A stretch of 64,000 nt of DNA, taken from positions 124,001 to 188,000 of the forward strand of contig NC_011297.1 of the NCBI RefSeq assembly GCF_000020965.1. Reading direction: 5' to 3'. Under the pieces are notes generated by a model. It was not told the DNA's origin, did not search any database, and worked only from the letters and a program-made list of their open reading frames with translations. The translations under genes were made by a program, and so were the position numbers. This DNA comes from Dictyoglomus thermophilum H-6-12. GTDB lineage: Bacteria; Dictyoglomota; Dictyoglomia; Dictyoglomales; Dictyoglomaceae. This document shows, piece by piece, positions 10,623 to 58,925 of this stretch (the first letter of the stretch is position 1; each line of letters starts with the position of its first letter).

Positions 10623-11413
10623 TTATTTAATAGTATTTTCCCATTTTTCTAATATGTTTTTATCAACCACACCTTCCATGGGACCTCTCTTGGTTACACT
10701 GAGAGCTCCTATTATATTTGCTCTTTTTAATGCTCTTTCAATATCATAACCTTGTAAAATACTAGTTACAAATCCGGCATCAAAGCAATCTCCTGCTCCG
10801 GTTGGATCAACCTCTTCTACCTTAATGGGATCAACTTTATATACTTTACCTTTGTAATATGCTTCTGCCCCATGTTTTCCTTTGATAGTCCAAGCTCTAC
10901 TCTTATATTTGGATCAAAGCTTATTAATTTACCATACTCATAAGATAGAGCTACAGCTTTTTCTATTGCTTCTCTTACATTATCCTTTATGGCAAGAGAG
11001 CATCCCATCACATGTAAAGCTTTTATGTTTTTTATTAAATCATCGGTGATATCTTCTGGGTATATATTGCTTGCTGCAGAATGTGGTAAATGAAAGATAA
11101 ATTTCCTTTCCCCATTAGAAAAATAAGTTACAAAGGCAATTCCAGTGATATATTGGTTGGTTTTCTTTATTAAGCTAGTTTCTACACCATCTCTTTTCAG
11201 TCTCTCAAATACATTTTTACCAAAGTCGTCCTCTCCTACGCACCCTAAGATTCCTCCTTTAAGTCCAAGTTTTACTACTTGGTCAATAAAGATTGCAGGA
11301 GCACCACTTGGATATGGTCCTAAAAATTCTCCAGGGCTTAGGAAGTCTTGATCAATATTTTTTGCCATTATTTCTAAAAGAATCTCACCTATAGTTAACA
11401 CATCAAGTTCCAT
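10623..11413 (-). pseudogene. PfkB-family sugar kinase with internal deletion and frameshift
   Basis: The 5' part (ATG at 11413, 4 bp after the dehydrogenase stop) encodes a normal ribokinase-fold N-terminus: MELDVLTIGEIL, YPSGAPAIF, GCVGEDDFG and FDPNIR. Near 10890-10900 the frame changes and, after about 65 missing residues, the C-terminal part KVDPIKVEEVDPTGAGDCFDAGF...EKWENTIK runs out of frame to a stop at 10623. The catalytic GAGD loop is in the lost frame, so the 206-residue product left is inactive. It probably phosphorylated a keto-sugar in the tagatose/galactitol branch. Confidence 0.85.
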
Positions 11414-43235: not shown

Positions 43236-44236
43236 CCAGAATAGTTATTTCTTAATATACTTTGATATAAAGAAATATGCTCTTCTGCAATTTTATCCCA
43301 AGTAAATTTTTCTGCGTATTTTCTACTTTTCTCTGAGAGGTATTTTATTAGATTATAATCATTCAATATTTTTTTAATAACCTCAAAAGCATCTTGCGGG
43401 TTGTTAGCAATTAAGACTGTATCTTTTATCTCTTCAGTGGTGTGTCTTCCTTCAGTTGTTATTGTAACTACGCCATTTCCAAGGGTTGCAAGTAGTGTAC
43501 CTCTTCTTTCTGAAGCACCGTCGGGAAAAGGAAGATAGGCAAATAATGTTTCTGAAAGGATTTCACATACTTCCTTCTCATTTAGATTTATGTTCCAAAT
43601 AATATTTAGATCTTTTGAAATGTACTTTAACTCTTGGTAGTACTTATTATCTTTTATCTTTCCGATTATTCTTAAATTTAAACTTAAGTTAGAGTTTTTA
43701 ATTAAGCTTGCAAGTTTTATAAAATCTTCTAAGTTCTTATTAGGGGCAATGAGACCAAAGTAAACAATTTCTTTTCTTCTTTCTTTGCTTTTATCGCAAA
43801 AAGGAATATTACTTCCAATGGGTATCACATATGTTTTGCTCTTTATGTATGGGTAAAATTTTTCAAAATATTCTTTTTCGTATTTAGAGGTAAAGATTAA
43901 CTTTTGAGAGTTTATAGTAAATGCAAAAAGAGAAATAAATCTTAGAATATGAGCTTGACTTGCTTCGTGTAAGGTGATCACCATAGGTTTTATGAGACTC
44001 AGAAAGTGAGGACCAATACTGTATCCATACCCTAAGGTAGGATATTGCATGTGAGTAATAGAGTAGTTTTTAAGCTCTTTATAAAGGTGGTAAATATCTT
44101 TTGGTTTCCATTTTTTGGGACATAAAACTGTTACATTTAATCCTTTTTTAATTAAGGCATTACTGAGGTTGTAGGTGTAATCTCCTACACCGCAAGGTTC
44201 GGGTGGTAATGAGCCTGTAATTAAAGCTATTTTCAT
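43232..44236 (-). CDS. GT4 family glycosyltransferase
   Basis: 334 residues. GT-B fold: ITGSLPPEPCGVGDYTYNL at the N-terminus, VYFGLIAPNKNLEDFI mid-protein, and SERRGTLLATLGNGVVTITTEGRHTTEE (donor-binding E-x7-E region). On the opposite strand, overlapping the end of the GT2 gene by 4 bp. Confidence 0.88.
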   Translation of the reverse strand: MKIALITGSLPPEPCGVGDYTYNLSNALIKKGLNVTVLCPKKWKPKDIYHLYKELKNYSITHMQYPTLGYGYSIGPHFLSLIKPMVITLHEASQAHILRFISLFAFTINSQKLIFTSKYEKEYFEKFYPYIKSKTYVIPIGSNIPFCDKSKERRKEIVYFGLIAPNKNLEDFIKLASLIKNSNLSLNLRIIGKIKDNKYYQELKYISKDLNIIWNINLNEKEVCEILSETLFAYLPFPDGASERRGTLLATLGNGVVTITTEGRHTTEEIKDTVLIANNPQDAFEVIKKILNDYNLIKYLSEKSRKYAEKFTWDKIAEEHISLYQSILRNNYSG

Positions 44237-44384
44237 AGTCTTTTTTTCATTTTATTCTAACATATTGAGGTGAATTGATGGACAGAAATAAAAGTTTATT
44301 TTGTTTATTTATTTTAAACTAATTATTTTTAAGATCTTTTGATATAATGTTAATAAGTCGAAAAATATATAAGAAAGTACTCAG

Positions 44385-45376
44385 ATGGGGAGAGATAAAA
44401 GGGGAAATAAAATTAATAGTCCTTCTGTCCTAGCTAAACTTTATAAACTCTATCTTCTTATAGAAAATGGTAGTTATCCTTCTATCTCTTATCTTCAAAA
44501 GAGTCTTGAGCTAAGTGAGAAAACTATAGACAGATATATATCTTATTAAGAGACTTCTTTAATATTCCAATAGAATACGATAGGGTAAAAAAGGGATATT
44601 ATTTAGCTGAAAAGGTAAGTTTTCCCATTCCAAAGCTTTCGGAAGGAGAATTATTATCCCTTTTAATATCTGCAAAGTTGGTAGAGGAATTTAGAAATAC
44701 TCCTTTAGAAGATTCTTTAAAAAAACTTGCTAAAAAGTTAGAAGCTCTTTTCCCTGAGGAGGTCACAATAGGAGGAAAAGAGTTGGAGATGATGCTTTCA
44801 GTCTCTCTTTCTCCTATAAAGATGAGGGTTGATATTAAGGATACCTTTGAGAAAATATTCTCTGCTATAAAGAATAGAAAAAGGATCATAATAAAATACT
44901 ACTCCATAGAAAGGGATGAATTAACTGAGAGAAAGGTAGATCCATATCATATATACAACTACGAAGGAGTATGGTATTTTTGTGGATTTTGCCATCTAAG
45001 AAAAGAGCTCAGAGATTTTGCTTTAGATAGAATTCAGAGCATAGATATCACCTCGGAGAAGTTTGAATTTCCCAAGGACTTCAATCCTAAAGAATATCTC
45101 TCTAAGCCTTTTAGGATATATAAGGGAAGTTTTATTAAGATGAAGGTCCTTTTTGATTCTTATCAAGCAAGATGGATAAAAGAGAGAATTTGGCATCCCA
45201 ATCAAAAAGTAGAAGAACTAGAAACAGGTGAGGTTATTCTGGAGATAGAAGGTAATTCTGAGGAGCTAAAACGTTGGATATTGAGCTATGGAAAGCATGC
45301 AAAGGTTTTAGAGCCTGAAGAGCTTAGAGAGGAGCTAAAAAAAGAATTGAAAGAGGTTTTAAAAAATTATGGATAA
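44385..45376 (+). pseudogene. WYL-domain transcriptional regulator, frameshifted
   Basis: ATG 44385 encodes an N-terminal winged helix (SVLAKLYKLYLLIENGSYPSISYLQKSLELSEKTIDRYIS) that stops at TAA 44547-44549. Two bases over, the frame continues LLRDFFNIPIEYDRVKKGYYLAEK and the WYL domain (RKRIIIKYYSIERDELTERKVDPYHIYNYEGVWYFCGFCHLR, ending 45376). The shift lies in an ATATATAT run at 44535-44541; removing one AT restores Asp-Arg-Tyr-Ile-Leu-Leu-Arg-Asp. WYL regulators often sit beside cas operons and can repress them. The C-terminal half alone could be made from an internal start at about 44678. Phase variation is possible. Confidence 0.75.
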
Positions 45377-45382
45377 AAATTT

Positions 45383-45405
45383 TGTAGGGTCTTATTTTGA
45401 CCCTA
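45383..45405 (+). terminator. Hairpin between regulator and cas6
   Basis: GTAGGGTC, 7-nt loop, GACCCTAC. No U-run, so it may be an attenuator or regulatory stem rather than a terminator. I see no strong promoter in the 72 bp before cas6. Confidence 0.4.
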
Positions 45406-45448
45406 CCAACTTGTATGCTAAGAGTAGGAGATAAAAAGGGGTGAATAA

Positions 45449-46231
45449 ATGAGGATAAAAATAGTTTACGAAACCCTAGATGGTAAAGATATAATTCTTC
45501 CATGCCATTATAATTATGCTATTCAGGGGTTGATATATCAGACCTTCTCTCCTGAGATAGCTAAATGGCTACATGATGTAGGCTTTTTATTGGGAAAAAG
45601 AAAATTTAAACTGTTTACTTTTTCCAGAATTCTTGAAAAAGGAAAGATTATTGTTAAGGATAATGATAACAAATACTTAAATTTTGGAAGGAAGATAACC
45701 TTTTATTTTTCCTCCCCCATAGATGATATTGTAGGAAATTTAGGAGAAAGATCCTTTAGGGAAAGAGAATTTTCCATAGGTAAAAATAAAGTTTATATAT
45801 CTCAATTAGAAATTCTTCTTCCTCCTAAGATTGAGGAGAAGGTTTATATAAAAATGTTATCCCCCCTTACTATATACAGCACATTCTTAAAAAATGGATC
45901 ACGGATTGTTCATTTTTATAGACCTTATGAAAACGAGTTTTCTAAGCTAATAGAAGAAAATGCAAAGAAAAAATTAAAGATTGTTCACCAGAATTCTTAT
46001 GATGGGGGTTCTTTGTCCATTAAACCTTATAAATTCTCTTTGGAGAAGAATAGAAAGGTGGTAATTTTCAAAAATACTCCTATAGAGGGGTGGACAGGTG
46101 TGTTTGAACTTTCAGGAGATCCTGCCTTAATAGCTATAACTTATGAGGCAGGTTTAGGAAATAAAAACTCAGAAGGGTTTGGAATGTGGGAGATCTGGAG
46201 AGAAAAGGAGGAGAGTAAAGATGCTGACTAA
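45449..46231 (+). CDS. cas6: Cas6 CRISPR pre-crRNA endoribonuclease
   Basis: 260 residues. Two ferredoxin-like folds; LPCHYNYAIQGLIYQTF near the N-terminus holds a candidate general-base His, and the C-terminal GLGNKNSEGFGMWEI is the glycine-rich loop of Cas6. It would cut within each repeat to leave an eight-base 5' handle ATTGAAAC on mature crRNA. First gene of the cas operon; its 3' end overlaps cas8b by 11 bp. Confidence 0.9.
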   Translation: MRIKIVYETLDGKDIILPCHYNYAIQGLIYQTFSPEIAKWLHDVGFLLGKRKFKLFTFSRILEKGKIIVKDNDNKYLNFGRKITFYFSSPIDDIVGNLGERSFREREFSIGKNKVYISQLEILLPPKIEEKVYIKMLSPLTIYSTFLKNGSRIVHFYRPYENEFSKLIEENAKKKLKIVHQNSYDGGSLSIKPYKFSLEKNRKVVIFKNTPIEGWTGVFELSGDPALIAITYEAGLGNKNSEGFGMWEIWREKEESKDAD

Positions 46232-48185
46232 TATTAAAGAAATAGGTAAAATGGTGAGAACCACTTCAGCGGAGGATTTTGTCTCTAATCTTGTGGAATA
46301 CGATGAGGACTTGATGGTTGATGAAAAGGAAAATAGAAAGTTCTTGGTTATAATGGATTTTGACTTAGAAAGTGAAAAGATAAACCTTTATAGGAGAGAG
46401 GTAGATAGGCAAGTATTAGAGGAATATCTTTGGGTAGGAAATGCAAAGGGAAATAATCCTCAGGATAGGTTAACAACAAATAATGTAAGCTATCTGATCT
46501 GTAGCGCTGGAGCTGGAAATGGTTCCTCTATTGTAAATCTTCTCAATAATCTGAAAGGTGGTACTCTGAAAAATCTTTTGGAAGAAGTAAAAAATAAGTT
46601 TTTTATGAGTTTGCCTTTAGAGAAAGTAAGATATTGTTTGGATTTGAGCAAGATTGGGAATGGTGAAATTATAGACATTAAACCCCCTGAGAGTAGTGAT
46701 GAGAAGAAATATCTAAAGGATATTGAAAACCTATGGAAGAAAAAATTTTTGGAAATTATTGAAGAAAAATTAGGCTTAAAAGAGAAGGAAATTTCTCTCT
46801 TTACAGTGACAATAAATGGAATGAAGCCCTCGGAGTTTAAAGATTACAAAGAATATATTGAGAATTCCCTTATAGAGGAAAGTTTTGAAGAAAGTTTTGA
46901 GGGCACATGTCATGTTTGTGGAGAGAGAAGCGAAATAACATATGACACTACAAAATTTCCTGTCAAGTTTTACATAACAAAGCTTATTACATTTTCTTCT
47001 GATTTTGAAGGAAAAGGCGTGAAAAAAGGTTTTTCTAAGAATTTTAGTTTATGTAGAGATTGTTATAAAGACATAATTTTGGGAATTAAATTTATACAGA
47101 ATAATTTAGACACTCGCCTTGGGAATAATGACCTTTGGATTATTCCTGGACTATTCTTCAATCCTCTCGGAAAGGAATTAAAAGAGAGTTGGATTAGGAC
47201 TTCTCGAGAGTTTGTAAAATCTACTTTCAATTTGCAGGAATTTTTAAGTTTTGAGGAACGGATTCAGAGAAACCTTGATGAATATAGAGAATTTGAAGAG
47301 ATTGCTGATTATGGTACTGTGGATTTACTTTTTTATGAGAGAAGTAAGGAGGCTTTTAAGATTAAAGAATATATAAAAGATGTACATTTAAGACGGGTAG
47401 AGAAGATTAGAAATAGTATAAGGGAGGTGGAGAATTTAGGACGAGAAATATTTGGAGAGGGAGAAAATTGGTTCTTAGGTTTGGAAGATATTTACTTTTT
47501 GATTCCAATAAGAAGGGGAAAGGTTTCGGAATACAAAAAGATGCTTGATCTTTATGAGGATATTTTCTTAGAGCATAGAATTGATAAGGATATCCTTATA
47601 GACTACTTTGTTGATCTTGCAAAAGTTTATAGGTTTGAAAAGTTTTCTCAATACAACATAAAGATGGTTAAGAATACGGATATGGGGATGTCTCTTTCTA
47701 TACTCAAAACTAACCTTCTCTTAAAACTCTTTGAGAAATTAAACCTTATTACAGGAGGTGATAGAATGCCTGAATTTGCAGATGATGTTCTAGACAAAGA
47801 TCTACAGGAATATATTTCAAAAATGCAATACAGCGAAGAAGAAGCTGCACTCTTTCTCTTAGGTTATCTTATTGGGGAGATTGGTTATGAACAAATAAGA
47901 GGTGCAGATTTAAGTGCCAAAAAGCCTATCCTTAATAAGATCAATTTTAATGGTATAAGTGCTAAAAACCTTATAAATCTTGCCAATGAAGTATTTGAAA
48001 AATTAGATCAATACAAAATAAGAGGATACAATGAGAAGACATTCTCGGTGATGAAATCCCTAATGGACAAACACATAAAGTCTTGGAAATTGAGTGAACA
48101 AGAGAATGTATATTATATCCTCTCAGGTTATGCTTTTAATACATATAAAAGAGTTAAAAGTGTAAAAGGAAAGGAGGATCAATAA
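46221..48185 (+). CDS. cas8b: Cas8b/Csh1 large subunit of type I-B Cascade
   Basis: About 654 residues from ATG 46221, behind AAAGGAGG. A zinc-finger pair CHVC (about residue 230) and CRDC (about 277) marks the Cas8b1/Csh1 group. The rest is divergent, as usual for large subunits. It recognises the PAM and helps recruit Cas3. Stop abuts cas7 with no gap. Confidence 0.85.
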   Translation: MLTNIKEIGKMVRTTSAEDFVSNLVEYDEDLMVDEKENRKFLVIMDFDLESEKINLYRREVDRQVLEEYLWVGNAKGNNPQDRLTTNNVSYLICSAGAGNGSSIVNLLNNLKGGTLKNLLEEVKNKFFMSLPLEKVRYCLDLSKIGNGEIIDIKPPESSDEKKYLKDIENLWKKKFLEIIEEKLGLKEKEISLFTVTINGMKPSEFKDYKEYIENSLIEESFEESFEGTCHVCGERSEITYDTTKFPVKFYITKLITFSSDFEGKGVKKGFSKNFSLCRDCYKDIILGIKFIQNNLDTRLGNNDLWIIPGLFFNPLGKELKESWIRTSREFVKSTFNLQEFLSFEERIQRNLDEYREFEEIADYGTVDLLFYERSKEAFKIKEYIKDVHLRRVEKIRNSIREVENLGREIFGEGENWFLGLEDIYFLIPIRRGKVSEYKKMLDLYEDIFLEHRIDKDILIDYFVDLAKVYRFEKFSQYNIKMVKNTDMGMSLSILKTNLLLKLFEKLNLITGGDRMPEFADDVLDKDLQEYISKMQYSEEEAALFLLGYLIGEIGYEQIRGADLSAKKPILNKINFNGISAKNLINLANEVFEKLDQYKIRGYNEKTFSVMKSLMDKHIKSWKLSEQENVYYILSGYAFNTYKRVKSVKGKEDQ

Positions 48186-49139
48186 ATGGGAGTCTATTCT
48201 AAAAATTCTGAAATCTTATTCCTTTATGATGCTAAATTAACAAATCCTAATGGGGATCCTGATGATGAAAATAAACCAAGAATAGACTATGAAAAAGAGA
48301 TAAACTTAGTAAGTGACGTAAGGTTAAAGAGATATATAAGAGATTACTTAGAAAGTATTGGATATGAAATTTTTGTGGCTAAGGTAGATGGGGAAATTGT
48401 TGATGCAACGGAAAGGTTAAGAAGATTCTTTGAGAAAGAGAATAAAAAAGTGAATTTGAATAAGCTAACCAAAGAAGATGTAGACTTTATACTTTCTAAA
48501 CTAATAGATGTGAGGCTTTTTGGAGCCACAATGCCTATTAAAGCTGGAGAAGAAGGAAAAGGAGCGAGTTCTAACTTTACAGGCCCTGTCCAATTTACTT
48601 GGGGTTATTCTTTGAATAAAGTAGAGCTTGTTACCTCTAATTCTATAACATCTACTTTTGCAGGAAGAGACGAAGCAGGAAAAGGGCAATATGGAACCTT
48701 TGGAAAAGATTGGAGACTCTATTATTCACTTATTGCTTTCTATGGTATAGTGAGTGGTTATAGGGCTAAATATACAAATCTTTCTGAAGAGGATGTTGCT
48801 CTTCTTGACAAAGCATTGTTAGAAGCTATTCCTCAGATGGCATCTACAAGAAGTAAGATTGGACAGAAGCCTCGTCTGTTACTAAGAATAGAATATTCAA
48901 AGCCCTATTTCTTAGGTGATCTCAGAAACAAAGTAAAAATAGATAAAGAGGAAGGGCTTAGGGATATTACTGATTATGAATTAGATATAACTAATCTTAA
49001 AGAAGTATTAGAGCAAAATAAAGATAGAATTGATAAAGTATATGTCTTTCAAGATCCCGAACTTAGAATTAAGGGAGGAAAACTTTTTGACCAATTGAAA
49101 GAGGTATTGGGGAATAAGGTTGTAGAACTTACTGTTTAG
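48186..49139 (+). CDS. cas7: Cas7/Csh2 backbone subunit
   Basis: 317 residues, RRM-like Cas7 fold: LYDAKLTNPNGDPDDENKPRID, VSDVRLKRYIRDYL, DVRLFGATMPIK and the FTGPVQFTWGYSLN segment are the Csh2 signatures of subtype I-B. Several copies coat the crRNA. Confidence 0.93.
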   Translation: MGVYSKNSEILFLYDAKLTNPNGDPDDENKPRIDYEKEINLVSDVRLKRYIRDYLESIGYEIFVAKVDGEIVDATERLRRFFEKENKKVNLNKLTKEDVDFILSKLIDVRLFGATMPIKAGEEGKGASSNFTGPVQFTWGYSLNKVELVTSNSITSTFAGRDEAGKGQYGTFGKDWRLYYSLIAFYGIVSGYRAKYTNLSEEDVALLDKALLEAIPQMASTRSKIGQKPRLLLRIEYSKPYFLGDLRNKVKIDKEEGLRDITDYELDITNLKEVLEQNKDRIDKVYVFQDPELRIKGGKLFDQLKEVLGNKVVELTV

Positions 49140-49155
49140 AAAGAATGGTGATAAT

Positions 49156-49908
49156 ATGAAAGTGATAGTATTTGATTTATTGGGAAAGATGGCGCACTTT
49201 AGGAAGTTTTATACAAACTCCTCTTCTCTCTCTTATCATTTTCCTCCTCGAACTACCATAGTTGGGTTGATTGCAGGGCTTCTTGGGTATGAAAGAGATA
49301 CCTATTATGAAATTTTTTCTACAGATAAGGCAAAAATAACCATAGGGGTCAAAAGTCCATTGAGAAAAATATTACAAGTAGTGAATTATGTGTGGGCAGA
49401 AAATGTTAAACAATTAAATCAAAGCAGAGGCCAGCATACTCAAATTCCACTGGAGATCATATTTCCTCAAGATATGAAGGAGGATATTTGTTATAGAATA
49501 TTTTTCCACCATAAAGATGAGAAGATTATGGAAGATCTTAAAAATAAGCTTGTAAATTTTGATTTCTGCTTTCCTCCGTATTTAGGAATTACAGAATTTG
49601 TAGGAAAAGTAGATTTTATTGGGGAGGGAATGGCAGAAATAAGTAGGGCAGATAAGGTATTAATTGATTCAGTGGTAAGCGTAGATTACATAAAGAAGAA
49701 TTCCTTAATCTTGGAGCCTCAAGTGGGGGCTCAATATGTAAAAGAGAAAATGCCACTTTCCTTCAACAAGGATAGGTTGTTAGAAGATCCACCCAAAGAA
49801 TTTATTGGAGAAATAAAGATTGGAAAAATTTCTTTAAAGGGGAATGTTGAATATTATAAAGTGGAAGTAAGGGATTTGGTTCAGAACGTTATCTTTATGG
49901 AGGATTAG
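49156..49908 (+). CDS. cas5: Cas5 subunit
   Basis: 250 residues. GKMAHFRKFYTNSSSLSYHFPPRTTIVGLIAGLLG is the classic Cas5 N-terminal motif. It binds the crRNA 5' handle. The next gene starts 1 bp after its stop. Confidence 0.92.
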   Translation: MKVIVFDLLGKMAHFRKFYTNSSSLSYHFPPRTTIVGLIAGLLGYERDTYYEIFSTDKAKITIGVKSPLRKILQVVNYVWAENVKQLNQSRGQHTQIPLEIIFPQDMKEDICYRIFFHHKDEKIMEDLKNKLVNFDFCFPPYLGITEFVGKVDFIGEGMAEISRADKVLIDSVVSVDYIKKNSLILEPQVGAQYVKEKMPLSFNKDRLLEDPPKEFIGEIKIGKISLKGNVEYYKVEVRDLVQNVIFMED

Positions 49909-49909
49909 T

Positions 49910-52315
49910 ATGGACAGGTTCTACTCCCATTTGGAGAGAAGAGGAGAAGAGGTTGATCTTGAAAGATCCATTTTGTTAAAAAATCACCTACGAGAGGTAG
50001 GTCTCAAAACAATAGAATATTTCTTCTTTGAGGGAGGAGATTTAAAAAATATAGGATATTACATTGGTATTACTCATGACTTTGGAAAATATACTACTTA
50101 CTTTCAGAAGAGACTTTTCGAAATTGAGCATTGTGGTGATCTTGCTAATCATGGTTTTATCTCCTCCCTATACTCTGCCTATTTGATTTCAAGGAAATTG
50201 GAAGAATTTAAAAATGTAGAAGATATAAAGGAATTTCTACCTCTCGTGGCATTCTTTGTTGTCTATCATCATCATTTAGATCTTTCTTCTCTTTCTAAAT
50301 TGAAATCTAATCTTGAGAGTTCTGACAAAAAGGAGCTCATATTAAAACAAATTGAGGACATGAAATCTAATTCTGAGATAATAAATAGAGACTTAAAAGA
50401 ATTAGAACTCCCACTGTTAGAGGAATTCGAAAGAGATTTAGATGATGTTATTAATCTACTACGGAAGAGAATTTATCAATTTGAAAATAAATTAGAAGAA
50501 AAGATAAAAGAGAAGATAGCAATATTTTGCTTAGTATTATTTTCTGCCCTTATAGATGCAGATAAAAAATCAGCAGGAAAGGTAAGGGATGTGGAGAGGA
50601 GAGATATTCCAGAGGATATAGTAGAGGTTTATAAGAGAGAAACATTTAAAGATAACTCCGATGAGATAAACCTTTTGAGAGAAGAGATATTTCAAAAGGT
50701 TATTAATAAGCTTAAAGAAATAGATATAAGTAAGAATAAGATCTTCACCTTTACTTCTCCTACAGGATCGGGAAAAACTCTCACTGGTTTTGCTTTTGCT
50801 GTAAAACTTAGAAAAAGGATTGAAAAGGAATTTGGTTACACTCCAAGAATTATATATTCTCTTCCTTTTATCTCAATAATTAATCAAAATTATGATGTGT
50901 TAAGAAATGTGCTGTCTAAACTGCCAGATTTCGAAGGAAACTCTTCTGCTTATATCATAAGCCATCATCATTTATCTAAGGTAGAATATGAAGAGGGAGA
51001 CGAATTAAGAGAAGTGGATGAATCTTTAGCTCTTATCGAATCGTGGGAGTCGGAGGTTATTGTTACAACTTTTGTCCAACTTCTCCACACTATTATAGGT
51101 TTTAAAAATAGCTTTCTTAAGAAATATCATAACATTGCAAGAAGCATTATTATTCTTGATGAGGTTCAGAATATTCCTGCAGAATATTGGAAATTGACCG
51201 AGAGAATATTCAAACTCATGAGCCAATATTTAAACTGTTACATAATTCTTATGACTGCCACAAAACCCTTAATTTTCTCTGATGGGGATACTTTAGAAAT
51301 TCTCGATAACAATGAGGTATATTTTGAAAAATTAAATAGAGTAGTACTTTATAGTAATGTAAAGGAGCAGAAGGGGCTTGACTCACTCCTTTCTTGGTTT
51401 ATTGATATATATGATCCCCAAAAATCTTATATGATAGTGCTAAATACCATAAAGTCCTCTATAGAATTTTATCGAATGTTAAAAGAACAATTATCCTTAA
51501 AAGAAAAAAGCATATACTACCTTTCTGCTAATATTATTCCTAAAGAAAGATTAGATAGGATACATAGAATAAAGCAAGATTTAGGGAACAATAAAAAACC
51601 AATTCTTGTTTCAACTCAAGTTGTGGAGGCTGGCGTAGATTTGGATTTTGATGTGGTGATAAGGGATTTAGGACCTTTGGATTCTGTAGTGCAGGTTGCT
51701 GGAAGATGTAATAGAAATTTCAAAAAAGAAAATGGCGAAATTTTTGTCTTCTTTTTGAAAGACGATAAAGGGAGATCTTATGCTAATATGGTTTATCAAA
51801 AGCTTACTCCAAGAATAACTTTTGAACTCTTTAGTGAGTTAGAGAGTGTAAAAGAAAGTGAATTTATAAAAATAATAAACAAATATTTCGAAAGATTAAG
51901 ATTTGAAAAATCTCAGGAAGAATCAGAGTTGATAATATCTGCATTGAATAATTTAAGATTTTATGAGGGTAAAGAGATCATATCAGTTAGCTCTTTTGAG
52001 CTCATCAAAGAGAAGGGAATTGTCTATCCAGTATTTATAGAAGTTGACGAAAAAGCTATGGAAACTTGGAGCAAATTTAAGAGCATCATTTCCGATGACT
52101 CTATAGATAGGTGGGAAAAGAAAAAACTGCTTCTTAATATAAAGTCTCAACTTGAAGAATATATTGTAAACGTTAGGGTAAATAAAAACGAACCATGGAT
52201 TTTTGATATAGCTTTCGACCAAAATATTGGGTACGTGGCTAATAAAGATATTCCTGAATATTATGATTCAGAAACAGGTTTTAAGAAAACTGAATTAAGC
52301 TCAGTAATTTTTTAA
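49910..52315 (+). CDS. cas3: Cas3 HD nuclease-helicase
   Basis: 801 residues, HD domain first. HD at residues 56-57 (GITHDFGKY), NHGFISS and VYHHHLDL contribute metal ligands. Superfamily 2 helicase motifs: SPTGSGKT (about 282), DEVQ (about 415, DExH box), MTATKP, STQVVEAGVDLDFD and QVAGRCNR (about 595). It unwinds and degrades DNA licensed by Cascade. All key motifs look intact. Confidence 0.95.
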   Translation: MDRFYSHLERRGEEVDLERSILLKNHLREVGLKTIEYFFFEGGDLKNIGYYIGITHDFGKYTTYFQKRLFEIEHCGDLANHGFISSLYSAYLISRKLEEFKNVEDIKEFLPLVAFFVVYHHHLDLSSLSKLKSNLESSDKKELILKQIEDMKSNSEIINRDLKELELPLLEEFERDLDDVINLLRKRIYQFENKLEEKIKEKIAIFCLVLFSALIDADKKSAGKVRDVERRDIPEDIVEVYKRETFKDNSDEINLLREEIFQKVINKLKEIDISKNKIFTFTSPTGSGKTLTGFAFAVKLRKRIEKEFGYTPRIIYSLPFISIINQNYDVLRNVLSKLPDFEGNSSAYIISHHHLSKVEYEEGDELREVDESLALIESWESEVIVTTFVQLLHTIIGFKNSFLKKYHNIARSIIILDEVQNIPAEYWKLTERIFKLMSQYLNCYIILMTATKPLIFSDGDTLEILDNNEVYFEKLNRVVLYSNVKEQKGLDSLLSWFIDIYDPQKSYMIVLNTIKSSIEFYRMLKEQLSLKEKSIYYLSANIIPKERLDRIHRIKQDLGNNKKPILVSTQVVEAGVDLDFDVVIRDLGPLDSVVQVAGRCNRNFKKENGEIFVFFLKDDKGRSYANMVYQKLTPRITFELFSELESVKESEFIKIINKYFERLRFEKSQEESELIISALNNLRFYEGKEIISVSSFELIKEKGIVYPVFIEVDEKAMETWSKFKSIISDDSIDRWEKKKLLLNIKSQLEEYIVNVRVNKNEPWIFDIAFDQNIGYVANKDIPEYYDSETGFKKTELSSVIF

Positions 52316-52331
52316 TATTTGAGAGGGGAAA

Positions 52332-52826
52332 ATGTCTTTTATAAATGGTACTTTAATAGCAAGTTATTTTATATGCAAAAGGGAGCTTTGGTTAATGGCT
52401 CATGAGTTGATTCCTGATCAGGAAAACTCATTTTTAGAGATGGGAAGATTTATAGAAGAGGAAGCTTATAGGGACGAAGAAAAGGGATTTTTAATTGGGG
52501 AGATGAAAATAGATATAGTAAAACAAGGAGACGAAAATATCATTATCGGAGAAATTAAAAAATCAAGTAGATCTGAATTGTCTGGAATAATGCAACTCTC
52601 ATATTATCTAATGAGGTTAAGAGAATATGGCATCGTAGCTAAAGGAGAAGTGTTAATCCCTAAGGAGAGAAAAAAGATTCCTGTTGAAATCAATGAGGAA
52701 ATTGAGGGAAGGCTAATTGAAGCTATAAAAGATATAAATATGATCATTTCAGAGCCTTATCCTCCAAAACCTGAAAAGATAAAGTATTGTAATCATTGTG
52801 CATATAAGGAGTTTTGTTGGGCATGA
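52332..52826 (+). CDS. cas4: Cas4 exonuclease
   Basis: 164 residues. A single N-terminal Cys (YFICKRELWL) and C-terminal KYCNHCAYKEFC give the four-Cys Fe-S cluster; IIGEIKKS carries the Glu-x-Lys of the RecB nuclease site. It trims prespacers with correct PAM ends for Cas1-Cas2. Confidence 0.93.
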   Translation: MSFINGTLIASYFICKRELWLMAHELIPDQENSFLEMGRFIEEEAYRDEEKGFLIGEMKIDIVKQGDENIIIGEIKKSSRSELSGIMQLSYYLMRLREYGIVAKGEVLIPKERKKIPVEINEEIEGRLIEAIKDINMIISEPYPPKPEKIKYCNHCAYKEFCWA

Positions 52827-53818
52827 GCGAGAGTATTTACATATTTTCTAGTGGAGAATTGAAAAGAAAGCATAATACAGTATACTTTGAGACTTCAGAT
52901 GGAGAACAGAAGTATCTTCCTATAGAAAACATAAGAGATATACATTTCTTTGGACAGGTTACTCTGAATAAGGAATTTTTAGAATTTGTTTCTCAGAAAA
53001 ATGTAATACTGCATTTTTATAACTACTATGACTATTATGTAGGAAGTTATTATCCACGGGAGCACTATAACTCAGGGTATATGATACTAAAACAAGCAGA
53101 ACATTATTTAGATTACGAGAAAAGACTTTTGCTTGCAAGAAAATTCGTGGTAGGAGCAATAGAAAATATCAAGAAAGTTTTAGGATATTATATTTCAAGA
53201 GGAAAAGAAAGCTTAAAAGAAAAATTAGAAAGAATAGAGTTTTTAGAAGAAAGTGCGTATGCCGAGGATCAGGTAGAAGGTTTAATGGGTATAGAGGGAA
53301 ATGTGAGAGATATTTATTATTCATGCTTTAATGAAATAACCGAAAGGGAAGAATTTTTCATAGATGAAAGGACCAAAAAGCCTCCTTCTAACAATATGAA
53401 TGCCTTAATAAGCTTTGGAAATTCTCTACTTTATACTGCTGTACTTTCAGAAATCTATAAAACCCATTTGGATCCGAGGATTGGTTATTTGCATACTACA
53501 AATTTTCGAAGGTTCACTTTAAATTTAGATATAGCTGAAATCTTTAAACCAGTAATTGTGGACAGAGTTATCTTTTCTTTAGTGAATAAAGGAGCAATAA
53601 CCCCAAGAGATTTCGAAGAAAAACTTGGAGGCATCTATTTGAAGGAAAAAGGAAGAAAATTATTTGTCCAAAATTTTGAAGAAAGAATGAAGGTTACTAT
53701 TCAATACAAGAATTTAGGTAAAGTCTCTTATAGAAGGTTAATAAGACTGGAACTTTATAAACTTGAAAAACATTTAATGGGAGAAGAAGAATACCAGCCT
53801 TATATTTCCCAGTGGTAG
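52823..53818 (+). CDS. cas1: Cas1 integrase
   Basis: About 331 residues from ATG 52823, overlapping the cas4 stop as ATGA. GIEGNVRDIYYSCFNE (active-site Glu), GYLHTTNFRRFTLNLDIAEIFKPVIVDR (active-site His and Asp/Glu). Subtype I-B form. Confidence 0.95.
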   Translation: MSESIYIFSSGELKRKHNTVYFETSDGEQKYLPIENIRDIHFFGQVTLNKEFLEFVSQKNVILHFYNYYDYYVGSYYPREHYNSGYMILKQAEHYLDYEKRLLLARKFVVGAIENIKKVLGYYISRGKESLKEKLERIEFLEESAYAEDQVEGLMGIEGNVRDIYYSCFNEITEREEFFIDERTKKPPSNNMNALISFGNSLLYTAVLSEIYKTHLDPRIGYLHTTNFRRFTLNLDIAEIFKPVIVDRVIFSLVNKGAITPRDFEEKLGGIYLKEKGRKLFVQNFEERMKVTIQYKNLGKVSYRRLIRLELYKLEKHLMGEEEYQPYISQW

Positions 53819-53819
53819 A

Positions 53820-54083
53820 ATGTATGTGATTATGGTTTATGATGTTAATCAGAAAAGAGTAGCAAAGGTACTAAACATAGCAAGAAAATATTTGGAATGG
53901 ATTCAAAATTCAGTGTTAGAAGGAGAGTTAACCGAAGCTAAATTTGAGCGTTTAAAAAGGGAAGTTGAACTTGTTATTGATGAAGAAGAGGATTCAGTCA
54001 TCTTTTACATAATGAGAACTATTAAATATAGTGAGAGACAAATACTTGGTATAGAAAAAAATAAGAGAGAACAGATACTGTAG
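53820..54083 (+). CDS. cas2: Cas2
   Basis: 87 residues, ferredoxin fold. VYDVNQKRVAKVLNIARKYLEWIQNSVLEGEL; first-strand Asp8 is the usual conserved Asp. Scaffold for spacer acquisition. Last gene of the operon; the leader begins after its stop. Confidence 0.95.
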   Translation: MYVIMVYDVNQKRVAKVLNIARKYLEWIQNSVLEGELTEAKFERLKREVELVIDEEEDSVIFYIMRTIKYSERQILGIEKNKREQIL

Positions 54084-54487: not shown

Positions 54488-55453
54488 GTTTGTAGCGTGC
54501 CTATAAGGGATTGAAACCTGTGAGGTGAAAAGATGATAAATACAAAGCTTTTTAAGTTTGTAGCGTGCCTATAAGGGATTGAAACTTTGTCATTGCTATC
54601 CCTCCTTTCGATGAAATAATCGTTTGTAGCGTGCCTATAAGGGATTGAAACTATAAAATGAAATAATCAAGAATAGTTTCTGTTTCTTGTTTGTAGCGTG
54701 CCTATAAGGGATTGAAACATGTTGTCTATTTTTTGCTCTAGCTCGTCCAGCTTCCCGTTTGTAGCGTGCCTATAAGGGATTGAAACCAAAGTGAAACAGA
54801 GAAATATAAAGCTGAAAAAGAAGCGTTTGTAGCGTGCCTATAAGGGATTGAAACTCCTCTACACCTCTCTCCCCTACAAGAATGTCTGGAAGTTTGTAGC
54901 GTGCCTATAAGGGATTGAAACTTGTATCGCCTCCCATCCTTAGTTTTGCTCAGTTTTAGTTTGTAGCGTGCCTATAAGGGATTGAAACCCCCATCCTCTT
55001 CTACATCCACAACAAGTTTGCCAAGTTTGTAGCGTGCCTATAAGGGATTGAAACAACATTAGCATTAATAAAATCTTAGCCACTTGGCCCCGTTTGTAGC
55101 GTGCCTATAAGGGATTGAAACCTTCGAAGGTTTGTTGCAAAAAACTGAAGGAAGCTGGTTTGTAGCGTGCCTATAAGGGATTGAAACAGCTAAAATTTGA
55201 AGAAATAGTTGGAGAATTAATTAGTTTGTAGCGTGCCTATAAGGGATTGAAACGAATTCACCATTCTATTCACTGTTTTTCTCTACCTCCGTTTGTAGCG
55301 TGCCTATAAGGGATTGAAACATTGGAGGTAGAGTTTGAAGTAAGTAGAGACAAGGTGAGTTTGTAGCGTGCCTATAAGGGATTGAAACACTGATCCAATT
55401 CTCTCTCTCTTCTTACTATCATCGTTTGTAGCGTGCCTATAAGGGATTGAAAC

Positions 55454-55954
55454 TTGCGTCTGAGACAATTGGTAAAACATTCTGAGCAAGTTTGTAGCGT
55501 GCCTATAAGGGATTGAAACGGTACAGTTAGGAATGAATATGCAAGGCACTTTTAACGTTTGTAGCGTGCCTATAAGGGATTGAAACATTCTTCTTCCGTT
55601 ATCTGCTCGAATATTTTTTGTAGTTTGTAGCGTGCCTATAAGGGATTGAAACGGATGGATGCAGGTAAATTTCTAATTGTAGGCTTTAAAGTTTGTAGCG
55701 TGCCTATAAGGGATTGAAACTCCGTGTGTACAAAAGATTGTGTAGCCTATTCTTTTGTTTGTAGCGTGCCTATAAGGGATTGAAACTTTTGGAGAACCAA
55801 AAAGAGCTAAAACATATGATTGGTTTGTAGCGTGCCTATAAGGGATTGAAACCTTCTATAAGTTCTTTAATTGCTTCCTTAATCTCTTGTTTGTAGCGTG
55901 CCTATAAGGGATTGAAACTTGCGTCTGAGACAATTGGTAAAACATTCTGAGCAA
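55454..55954 (+). repeat. Duplicate spacer pair
   Basis: The 36-base spacer at 55454-55489 (starts TTGCGTCTGAGACAATTGG) is identical to that at 55919-55954, seven units apart. Confidence 0.9.
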
Positions 55955-56193
55955 GTTTGTAGCGTGCCTATAAGGGATTGAAACACCAAAAAGATGCAAA
56001 AAGCAAAAAAATGGCATGGAGCGTTTGTAGCGTGCCTATAAGGGATTGAAACAGTTTTTCGATACGATGTCTATGCCTTCAATATCAAGCTTAAACAGTT
56101 TGTAGCGTGCCTATAAGGGATTGAAACTTTTCCACTGACCAAACATTATATGTTAGTGGCATAGTTTGTAGCGTGCCTATAAGGGATTGAAAC

Positions 56194-56364
56194 CTGGTAG
56201 GACGTTAAGACTATATGAAAATCTCTTAAGGTTTGTAGCGTGCCTATAAGGGATTGAAACGTTTGTGGCGGATAATGACCAAATTTCCATATAATTTGTT
56301 TGTAGCGTGCCTATAAGGGATTGAAACTGCAATACAGCTTGCGAAATTAGAAGCAATTGCAAAG
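56194..56364 (+). repeat. Three-spacer block, first copy
   Basis: Three consecutive spacers (beginning CTGGTAGGAC, GTTTGTGGCG and TGCAATACAG) recur in the same order at 57529-57699, twenty units further on. Confidence 0.92.
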
Positions 56365-57528
56365 GTTTGTAGCGTGCCTATAAGGGATTGAAACAGCCCT
56401 CTCCATTCTCTATCCCATTCTCCAAAATCCAAGTTTGTAGCGTGCCTATAAGGGATTGAAACTCTCTCAGGCTGGTGGAAAAATCACAAGGAATTATCGT
56501 TTGTAGCGTGCCTATAAGGGATTGAAACACCTAATAGCAAACGAATATTTTGACACGCCAAGCGCTGTTTGTAGCGTGCCTATAAGGGATTGAAACGACA
56601 CTCCCAACTTTTTCCGAGTCTCAGACCTAAGAGGTTTGTAGCGTGCCTATAAGGGATTGAAACGAGCGTGCGGTCTTAAAGTCGTCGTATATTCTCTGCA
56701 GTTTGTAGCGTGCCTATAAGGGATTGAAACCAATACAGAAAAAGATAAACTTCAGGAGGGTAGTAAGTTTGTAGCGTGCCTATAAGGGATTGAAACCGTC
56801 TTGCCTGTTGCTGCGCAATTAGGAGTATCTTTGTTTGTAGCGTGCCTATAAGGGATTGAAACTTTCACACTTGGTTCTGGTGCAAGAGCGCTTTACCCAG
56901 TTTGTAGCGTGCCTATAAGGGATTGAAACGCAGCAGAGGCAACCGCAATAATGATAGACATCGTGAGTTTGTAGCGTGCCTATAAGGGATTGAAACGAAT
57001 CTTTCTTAAGCATCTCCTCAAGGCAAATAGAGTGTTTGTAGCGTGCCTATAAGGGATTGAAACAGTTTGAAGGAAGCTTCATCTTGTAGCCTTTTTATCT
57101 GTTTGTAGCGTGCCTATAAGGGATTGAAACGTTTTTTAATCGCTTTTTAGCTTTCAGGTTTTTGCTTGTTTGTAGCGTGCCTATAAGGGATTGAAACATA
57201 TTTCTATAGAAGCCCATGGATATCGCACCTCCGTTTGTAGCGTGCCTATAAGGGATTGAAACGTTTTTCTAGGAGTTCTACAACATCGTTTGCAAACTGT
57301 TTGTAGCGTGCCTATAAGGGATTGAAACCAGGCTCGATACTTACCCATGTTTTTATGCCTCTCTTGTTTGTAGCGTGCCTATAAGGGATTGAAACTTTAG
57401 CTGGCAATAATCTAAACAATTTTTAAAATCTGTTTGTAGCGTGCCTATAAGGGATTGAAACTTATCTCCCTCGCCACTGAGAATGATATCTTCCCCTCGT
57501 TTGTAGCGTGCCTATAAGGGATTGAAAC

Positions 57529-57699
57529 CTGGTAGGACGTTAAGACTATATGAAAATCTCTTAAGGTTTGTAGCGTGCCTATAAGGGATTGAAACGTTTG
57601 TGGCGGATAATGACCAAATTTCCATATAATTTGTTTGTAGCGTGCCTATAAGGGATTGAAACTGCAATACAGCTTGCGAAATTAGAAGCAATTGCAAAG
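57529..57699 (+). repeat. Three-spacer block, second copy
   Basis: Identical to 56194-56364, including the order of the three spacers. Confidence 0.92.
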
Positions 57700-58429
57700 G
57701 TTTGTAGCGTGCCTATAAGGGATTGAAACATTTTCTCTTTTCCAAAGCACGCTTTTCCAATTCACGCGTTTGTAGCGTGCCTATAAGGGATTGAAACATG
57801 GAAAAAAATGCAGAAGCCTCTCAAACATCTCAAGTTTGTAGCGTGCCTATAAGGGATTGAAACGAGGTAAATATGTATACATTCCATATTTTGCTCAAGG
57901 TTTGTAGCGTGCCTATAAGGGATTGAAACTCCTACAACGCTGTCTGCGTCCCATTCCAAAATCTCGTTTGTAGCGTGCCTATAAGGGATTGAAACCACCA
58001 CTCTATCAGTAGCTCCTTCTTGTTCTGTGGAGTTTGTAGCGTGCCTATAAGGGATTGAAACTCCTTATTTATTATTGTATTCTTTCTTTTTATAACTGTT
58101 TGTAGCGTGCCTATAAGGGATTGAAACATAACATAAAGTGAAACTGAGCGAGACATCCCTGAACGTTTGTAGCGTGCCTATAAGGGATTGAAACAGGAGT
58201 GGGAAGAGATAGAAGATGAGTACAATATAGTTTGTAGCGTGCCTATAAGGGATTGAAACTAGTAGAAAAGAAAGAATAAAAAGAAAGAATAAATAAGTTT
58301 GTAGCGTGCCTATAAGGGATTGAAACCTTGCTGGAAGTGTAATGAGTTTCCCCTTAAAAACTGTTTGTAGCGTGCCTATAAGGGATTGAAACAGGTTCCC
58401 ATTCCTTTGTCTTAGTTTCGTCTACAAAG

Positions 58430-58825
58430 GTTTGTAGCGTGCCTATAAGGGATTGAAACAAGGAAACGACGTAATAGAGCTAAGAAAATTTGAGAGTTTG
58501 TAGCGTGCCTATAAGGGATTGAAACAAGAATGGATGTAAGAAATTTGTTTTGGAGTTGCTTGTTTGTAGCGTGCCTATAAGGGATTGAAACAACTTACAG
58601 GAGCAAAGGGTTATAGAGGAGATGAAGGTTTGTAGCGTGCCTATAAGGGATTGAAACAAGGAAACGACGTAATAGAGCTAAGAAAATTTGAGAGTTTGTA
58701 GCGTGCCTATAAGGGATTGAAACAAGAATGGATGTAAGAAATTTGTTTTGGAGTTGCTTGTTTGTAGCGTGCCTATAAGGGATTGAAACAACTTACAGGA
58801 GCAAAGGGTTATAGAGGAGATGAAG
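58430..58825 (+). repeat. Tandem duplication of three repeat-spacer units
   Basis: Units at 58430-58627 (spacers starting AAGGAAACGA, AAGAATGGAT, AACTTACAGG) are directly followed by an exact copy at 58628-58825, 198 bp each. Confidence 0.95.
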
Positions 58826-58925
58826 GTTTGTAGCGTGCCTATAAGGGATTGAAACTCTCTTTCCAAGCTTCAAAAGTAATGAAATCTTTAAGATAGTTTG
58901 TAGCGTGCCTATAAGGGATTGAAAG

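Follow-up and report, generated by a model that had tools for sequence, protein, structure and literature searches.

The stretch of DNA analysed here (the window, 64,000 nt) corresponds to positions 124001-188000 of the D. thermophilum H-6-12 genome, which is assembled as a single contig of 1,959,987 bp. It carries a complete type I-B cas operon, all of whose genes appear intact, located directly 3' of a WYL regulator gene that is split between two reading frames. The genes follow the order WYL, cas6, cas8b, cas7, cas5b, cas3, cas4, cas1b and cas2, and the operon is followed by a CRISPR array:

44385-44549, + strand: 5' fragment of the regulator gene, with 54 codons before a TAA (44547-44549), encoding the wHTH as far as the recognition helix extends
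44522-45376, + strand: 3' part of the regulator gene, encoding WYL (PF13280, E=7e-22) and WCX (PF25583, E=1e-19) domains, open in the -1 (= +2) frame
45449-46231, + strand: cas6 (TIGR01877, E=2.5e-44)
46227-48185, + strand: cas8b/csh1
48186-49139, + strand: cas7/csh2
49156-49908, + strand: cas5b
49910-52315, + strand: cas3 (HD and helicase)
52332-52826, + strand: cas4
52814-53818, + strand: cas1b
53820-54083, + strand: cas2
54488-58925, + strand: CRISPR array of about 67 units, with the 30-nt repeat GTTTGTAGCGTGCCTATAAGGGATTGAAAC

The array contains exact internal duplications, one dispersed (56164-56395 = 57499-57730) and one in tandem (58427-58624 = 58625-58822), and one spacer occurs twice, at 55454 and 55919. 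An Rfam scan of 44200-45600 returned nothing meaningful. The genomes compared are that of the strain itself (G000), two of the same genus (G001 and G002), one of the same family (G004) and the nearest relatives (G005 and G006); G001 is probably D. turgidum, partly because its cas gene order agrees with PMC5167688.

A cas-linked WYL regulator in two frames

The WYL and WCX domains encoded in the window both pass the gathering score, while the HTH_11 match to the 5' fragment (E=5e-4) falls below it; in intact homologues, HTH_11 scores above it. PADLOC models of cas-associated WYL proteins match the 3' part with E=3e-41 and 7e-38, and cas6 is the next gene, in agreement with the sequence-only reading, which had proposed a cas-linked WYL regulator with its HTH and WYL halves in different frames. 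In the structural model of the intact G005 homologue (mean pLDDT 72), the recognition helix comprises residues 43-55 and the wing strands residues 61-72, which places the frame break before the wing. The 54-residue product therefore lacks the wing, the WYL sensor and the WCX dimerisation domain, and the regulator would be dead. Since in this assembly the frame runs for 54 codons only, the gene is classed as a broken member of the cas-linked wHTH-WYL(-WCX) regulators and not as a working one.

The gene directly precedes cas6 at five further loci (G005, G006, L040, L041 and L042), and at L047 it lies just after cas6, between cas6 and cas8; this is the conserved position in cas loci expected of cas-linked WYL regulators. 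The linkage holds in G005 and several others despite identities to the window of about 23% for cas8 and about 30-42% for cas7-cas3. Judged by translations only, distant WYL copies also precede a probable cas operon (L044) and cmr1-3 (L048). In G001, G002 and G004, cas6 has no adjacent WYL gene.

The cas locus (44385-54083) is a mosaic. The window genes WYL-cas6-cas8b-cas7-cas5-cas3-cas4 resemble those of G006, with 63-81% identity, and cas1-cas2 show 80-89% identity to G001 and G005, versus 68-69% to G006; this puts a recombination breakpoint close to where cas4 and cas1 overlap. G005, for its part, has retained WYL-cas6 and cas1-cas2 alongside a different effector module. Gene identities of this kind suggest that the WYL regulator arrived with a transferred effector module, which is similar to that of another genus.

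The break in the reading frame

Homologues were gathered both within the family and among distant thermophiles, and 15 of them were aligned across the junction. All 15 share the spacing T-[IV]-x-R-x-[ILV]-x-x-L-[RK]; in the window, the HTH frame gives TIDRYISY before its stop codon, and LRDFFNIPIEYD (LRDFF) resumes one base back. Measured against the shared spacing, the net change at the junction is the loss of one base. Two features delimit the site:

44534-44541, + strand: ATATATAT tract, the tract noted in the sequence-only reading, consisting mostly of conserved R-Y-I codons
44536-44549, + strand: interval holding the missing base relative to homologues, from homologue spacing and HMM comparison, its exact position not being resolvable

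The frame shift had been described as coinciding with the AT tract, with the loss of one AT restoring the gene. The tract is present, but the base was lost near it and not necessarily in it. Removal of one AT does rejoin the frames; the protein would then read TIDRYILLRD, one residue short, and it scores 514.3 bits against the homologue HMM versus 520.8, i.e. 6.5 bits lower. On the homologue spacing and the HMM score, AT-tract slippage is rejected as the lesion. The 21-mer at the junction gave zero matches to viral contigs.

The WYL half contains no further stop or frameshift across 828 nt, and neutral divergence since the break is therefore bounded at about 0.01-0.04, assuming indel/substitution ratios of 0.03-0.2. 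Its dN/dS to G005 is 0.069, with synonymous sites near saturation. The dN values of this half (window-G005 0.135, window-G006 0.169, G005-G006 0.132) give a window branch about as long as the G006 branch, with no acceleration of change in the window. With no second lesion, no excess of amino-acid change and no frameshift signal, the break is therefore recent, or else it is a sequencing error absent from the living strain.

An error of sequencing or assembly, which would leave the gene intact and the regulator working normally in the living strain, is unlikely but deserves serious weight. The lack of any other lesion or relaxed selection and the perfect predicted operator described below are as expected of an intact gene, and the sequence comes from a single assembly of Sanger reads at about 9x, deposited in 2008 (PMC3931368). 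Against an error, finishing demanded double-clone, two-strand or two-chemistry coverage together with manual editing (PMC3931368), and only short runs occur near the break. Moreover, true gene decay occurs in this genome: a PfkB-type sugar kinase gene (10647-11413, - strand), the second pseudogene in the window, shows an internal deletion and a frame change relative to the intact G001 copy, and its deletion is inexplicable by base-call error. This kinase gene was the one other broken gene in 78 gene comparisons with G001, G005 and G006, a count that does not discriminate error from mutation. The view of the sequence-only reading that plain inactivation is simpler than a switch is supported.

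A bypass of the break is improbable, whether by ribosomal frameshifting or through a split protein composed of a short HTH peptide and a WYL-WCX part translated from an internal start. A candidate for such a start lies within the gene:

44770-44785, + strand: AGGAGG and, 7 nt later, an in-frame TTG (44783), a possible internal start for a WYL-WCX protein of about 197 aa

This Shine-Dalgarno-like arrangement and the unrelaxed WYL half are what a bypass would call for, but conservation of the AGGAGG does not extend to G005 or G006, and an HTH without its wing would be unlikely to bind DNA. Programmed -1 frameshifting is rejected, as no X-XXY-YYZ slippery heptamer precedes the stop (44500-44549), and the WYL genes of relatives need no frameshift.

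Very improbable is the ON/OFF switch that the sequence-only reading had raised, in which AT units gained and lost would reversibly turn the cas regulator off and on: a four-unit tract does sit at the frame change and dropping a unit restores the frame, but not the length of a helix that 15 of 15 homologues keep, the net change is one base, a tract of four dinucleotide units is short and is background in this genome ((AT/TA)>=4 tracts number 15 in 64 kb, and 22% of random 992-nt stretches hold one), G005 and G006 carry AGATATATT at the conserved R-Y-I codons, the tract is not extended in relatives, and all the other genomes that yielded close homologues of the gene have them open.

A palindrome between the WYL gene and cas6

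The 72-nt gap between the WYL gene and cas6 contains two features of interest:

45384-45406, + strand: perfect palindrome with 8-bp arms, GTAGGGTC-TTATTTT-GACCCTAC, a predicted operator
45397-45402, + strand: TTGACC, a weak -35-like hexamer in the right palindrome arm

A palindrome of this type, AGGGTC-N7-GACCCT or AnGGTC-N7-GACCnT, is present in all six gaps in which WYL directly precedes cas6. Its spacer is fixed at 7, six pairs are kept in 6/6 gaps, and one pair is symmetrically changed in G005 and G006; in a shuffling test, covariation across these six related sequences does not reach significance. Any 6-bp palindrome with a spacer of 7 arises in 1-6% of shuffled sequences per gap. The argument is built on presence, position and spacer length at a small number of mutually related loci. 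Among the four other cas6 loci examined, that of G004 lacks the palindrome, and those of G001, G002 and L047 have it broken on one arm; the G001 site keeps TTATTTTGACCC with a changed left arm. This distribution suggests that the palindrome is probably the operator of the WYL regulator, still perfect in the window.

Other roles of the palindrome were considered. A genome-wide regulon is rejected, since the GGTC-N7-GACC core occurs at 5 sites in the strain's own genome versus 8 for a control pattern, at or below background, and only the copy at 45384-45406 has 8-bp arms, the remaining sites having arms of 4 bp. An intrinsic terminator is likewise rejected, because the T-run is lacking on the + strand and only the - strand reading has one; no - strand gene was seen to end at the palindrome. 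In several relatives a -35-like hexamer falls on the right arm; a consensus promoter scan of the window reported no promoter at the palindrome or for cas6, and the overlap with a promoter is weak. As for an operator upstream of the WYL gene itself, the three closest genomes share nothing there beyond AT-rich repeats.

Two other sites were observed. The core GGTCTAATTTTGACC is shared by L067 1501 (G000:C1:58090) and G006:C10:88672, and the G000 copy, with arms of only 4 bp, is found upstream of a gene for an uncharacterised protein of 307 aa. At L053 18442 (G004), a long perfect inverted repeat, AGGGCGGTC-AAATATT-GACCGCCCT, stands just after a groES-like gene and is probably a terminator.

The genome also encodes an intact WYL paralogue (G000:C1:1722934), beside cinA-like and ABC-transporter genes and without a palindrome site. 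It is rejected as a backup for the split regulator on account of this non-cas context and the missing site; G001 and G002 have a comparable non-cas copy, yet their site is broken.

Proposed role and likeness to known WYL regulators

The explanation we regard as reasonably probable is that the split gene was a dedicated WYL regulator of the type I-B cas operon, silenced by the loss of a single base, and that the palindrome is its probable operator. A single base would have been lost at the end of the sequence encoding the recognition helix, and translation would stop after 54 residues. The intact regulator probably bound AGGGTC-N7-GACCCT as a dimer near the cas6 promoter, and its WYL domain, by sensing a nucleic-acid ligand, would have altered cas transcription. 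Loss of the regulator would leave the cas operon without local control and presumably constitutive (derepressed) in this strain. The broken frame, the net loss of one base, the conserved linkage and palindrome and the lack of other lesions are observed; we infer the operator role of the palindrome, the sign of the regulator, its ligand and constitutive cas expression. As to the sign, repression is slightly favoured over activation: the cas-linked WYL precedent Sll7009 and also BrxR repress, against which stand PafBC and DriD, WYL proteins that activate responses to DNA damage.

As a lesion the frameshift is ordinary, and the regulator belongs to a known kind; the palindrome is the new element. 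Its conservation makes it a directly testable predicted operator for a single family of type I-B systems. The series of intact regulator with site, broken regulator with site, and no linked regulator with decayed site constitutes a natural test of the function of such regulators. A bolder reading, which we hold only tentatively and with more doubt than belief, is that the strain has been caught rewiring its CRISPR control: a WYL regulator from a foreign effector module may just have been silenced while its operator is perfect, the relatives lacking the WYL gene may represent the following stage, that of the decayed operator, and a new WYL-operator pair would be defined for a type I-B family whose CRISPR system would here be always on.

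To our knowledge, WYL regulators are widespread beside cas genes, and few have a known binding site. In Synechocystis, the WYL protein Sll7009 is described as repressing the type I-D CRISPR-Cas system (Hein et al. 2013, cited by PMC4012209 and PMC10212523). A wHTH and WYL regulator gene adjoins a cas operon in both systems; the window differs in its type I-B operon, in the position directly before cas6 and in the frameshift, and the two are likened by gene type and position, not by sequence. BrxR and CapW are WYL regulators of BREX and CBASS, respectively (PMC9122601, PMC9122588), and share with the present family the order wHTH-WYL-C-terminal domain and a gene at a defence locus; they are distant, the WYL domain carrying their matches to the homologue profile (E=9e-9 to 1e-5). 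The binding site of BrxR is an inverted repeat close to its promoter (PMC9122601), whereas the operator predicted here is shorter and sits in front of cas6 instead of the regulator gene.

PafBC is the closest solved structure by profile (E=2e-29) and DriD the closest by fold (E=8.5e-16, with a low TM-score), both sharing the WYL and C-terminal domains. PafB and PafC act as a pair, and we know of no CRISPR link for PafBC or DriD. Sequence identity is 17-19%.
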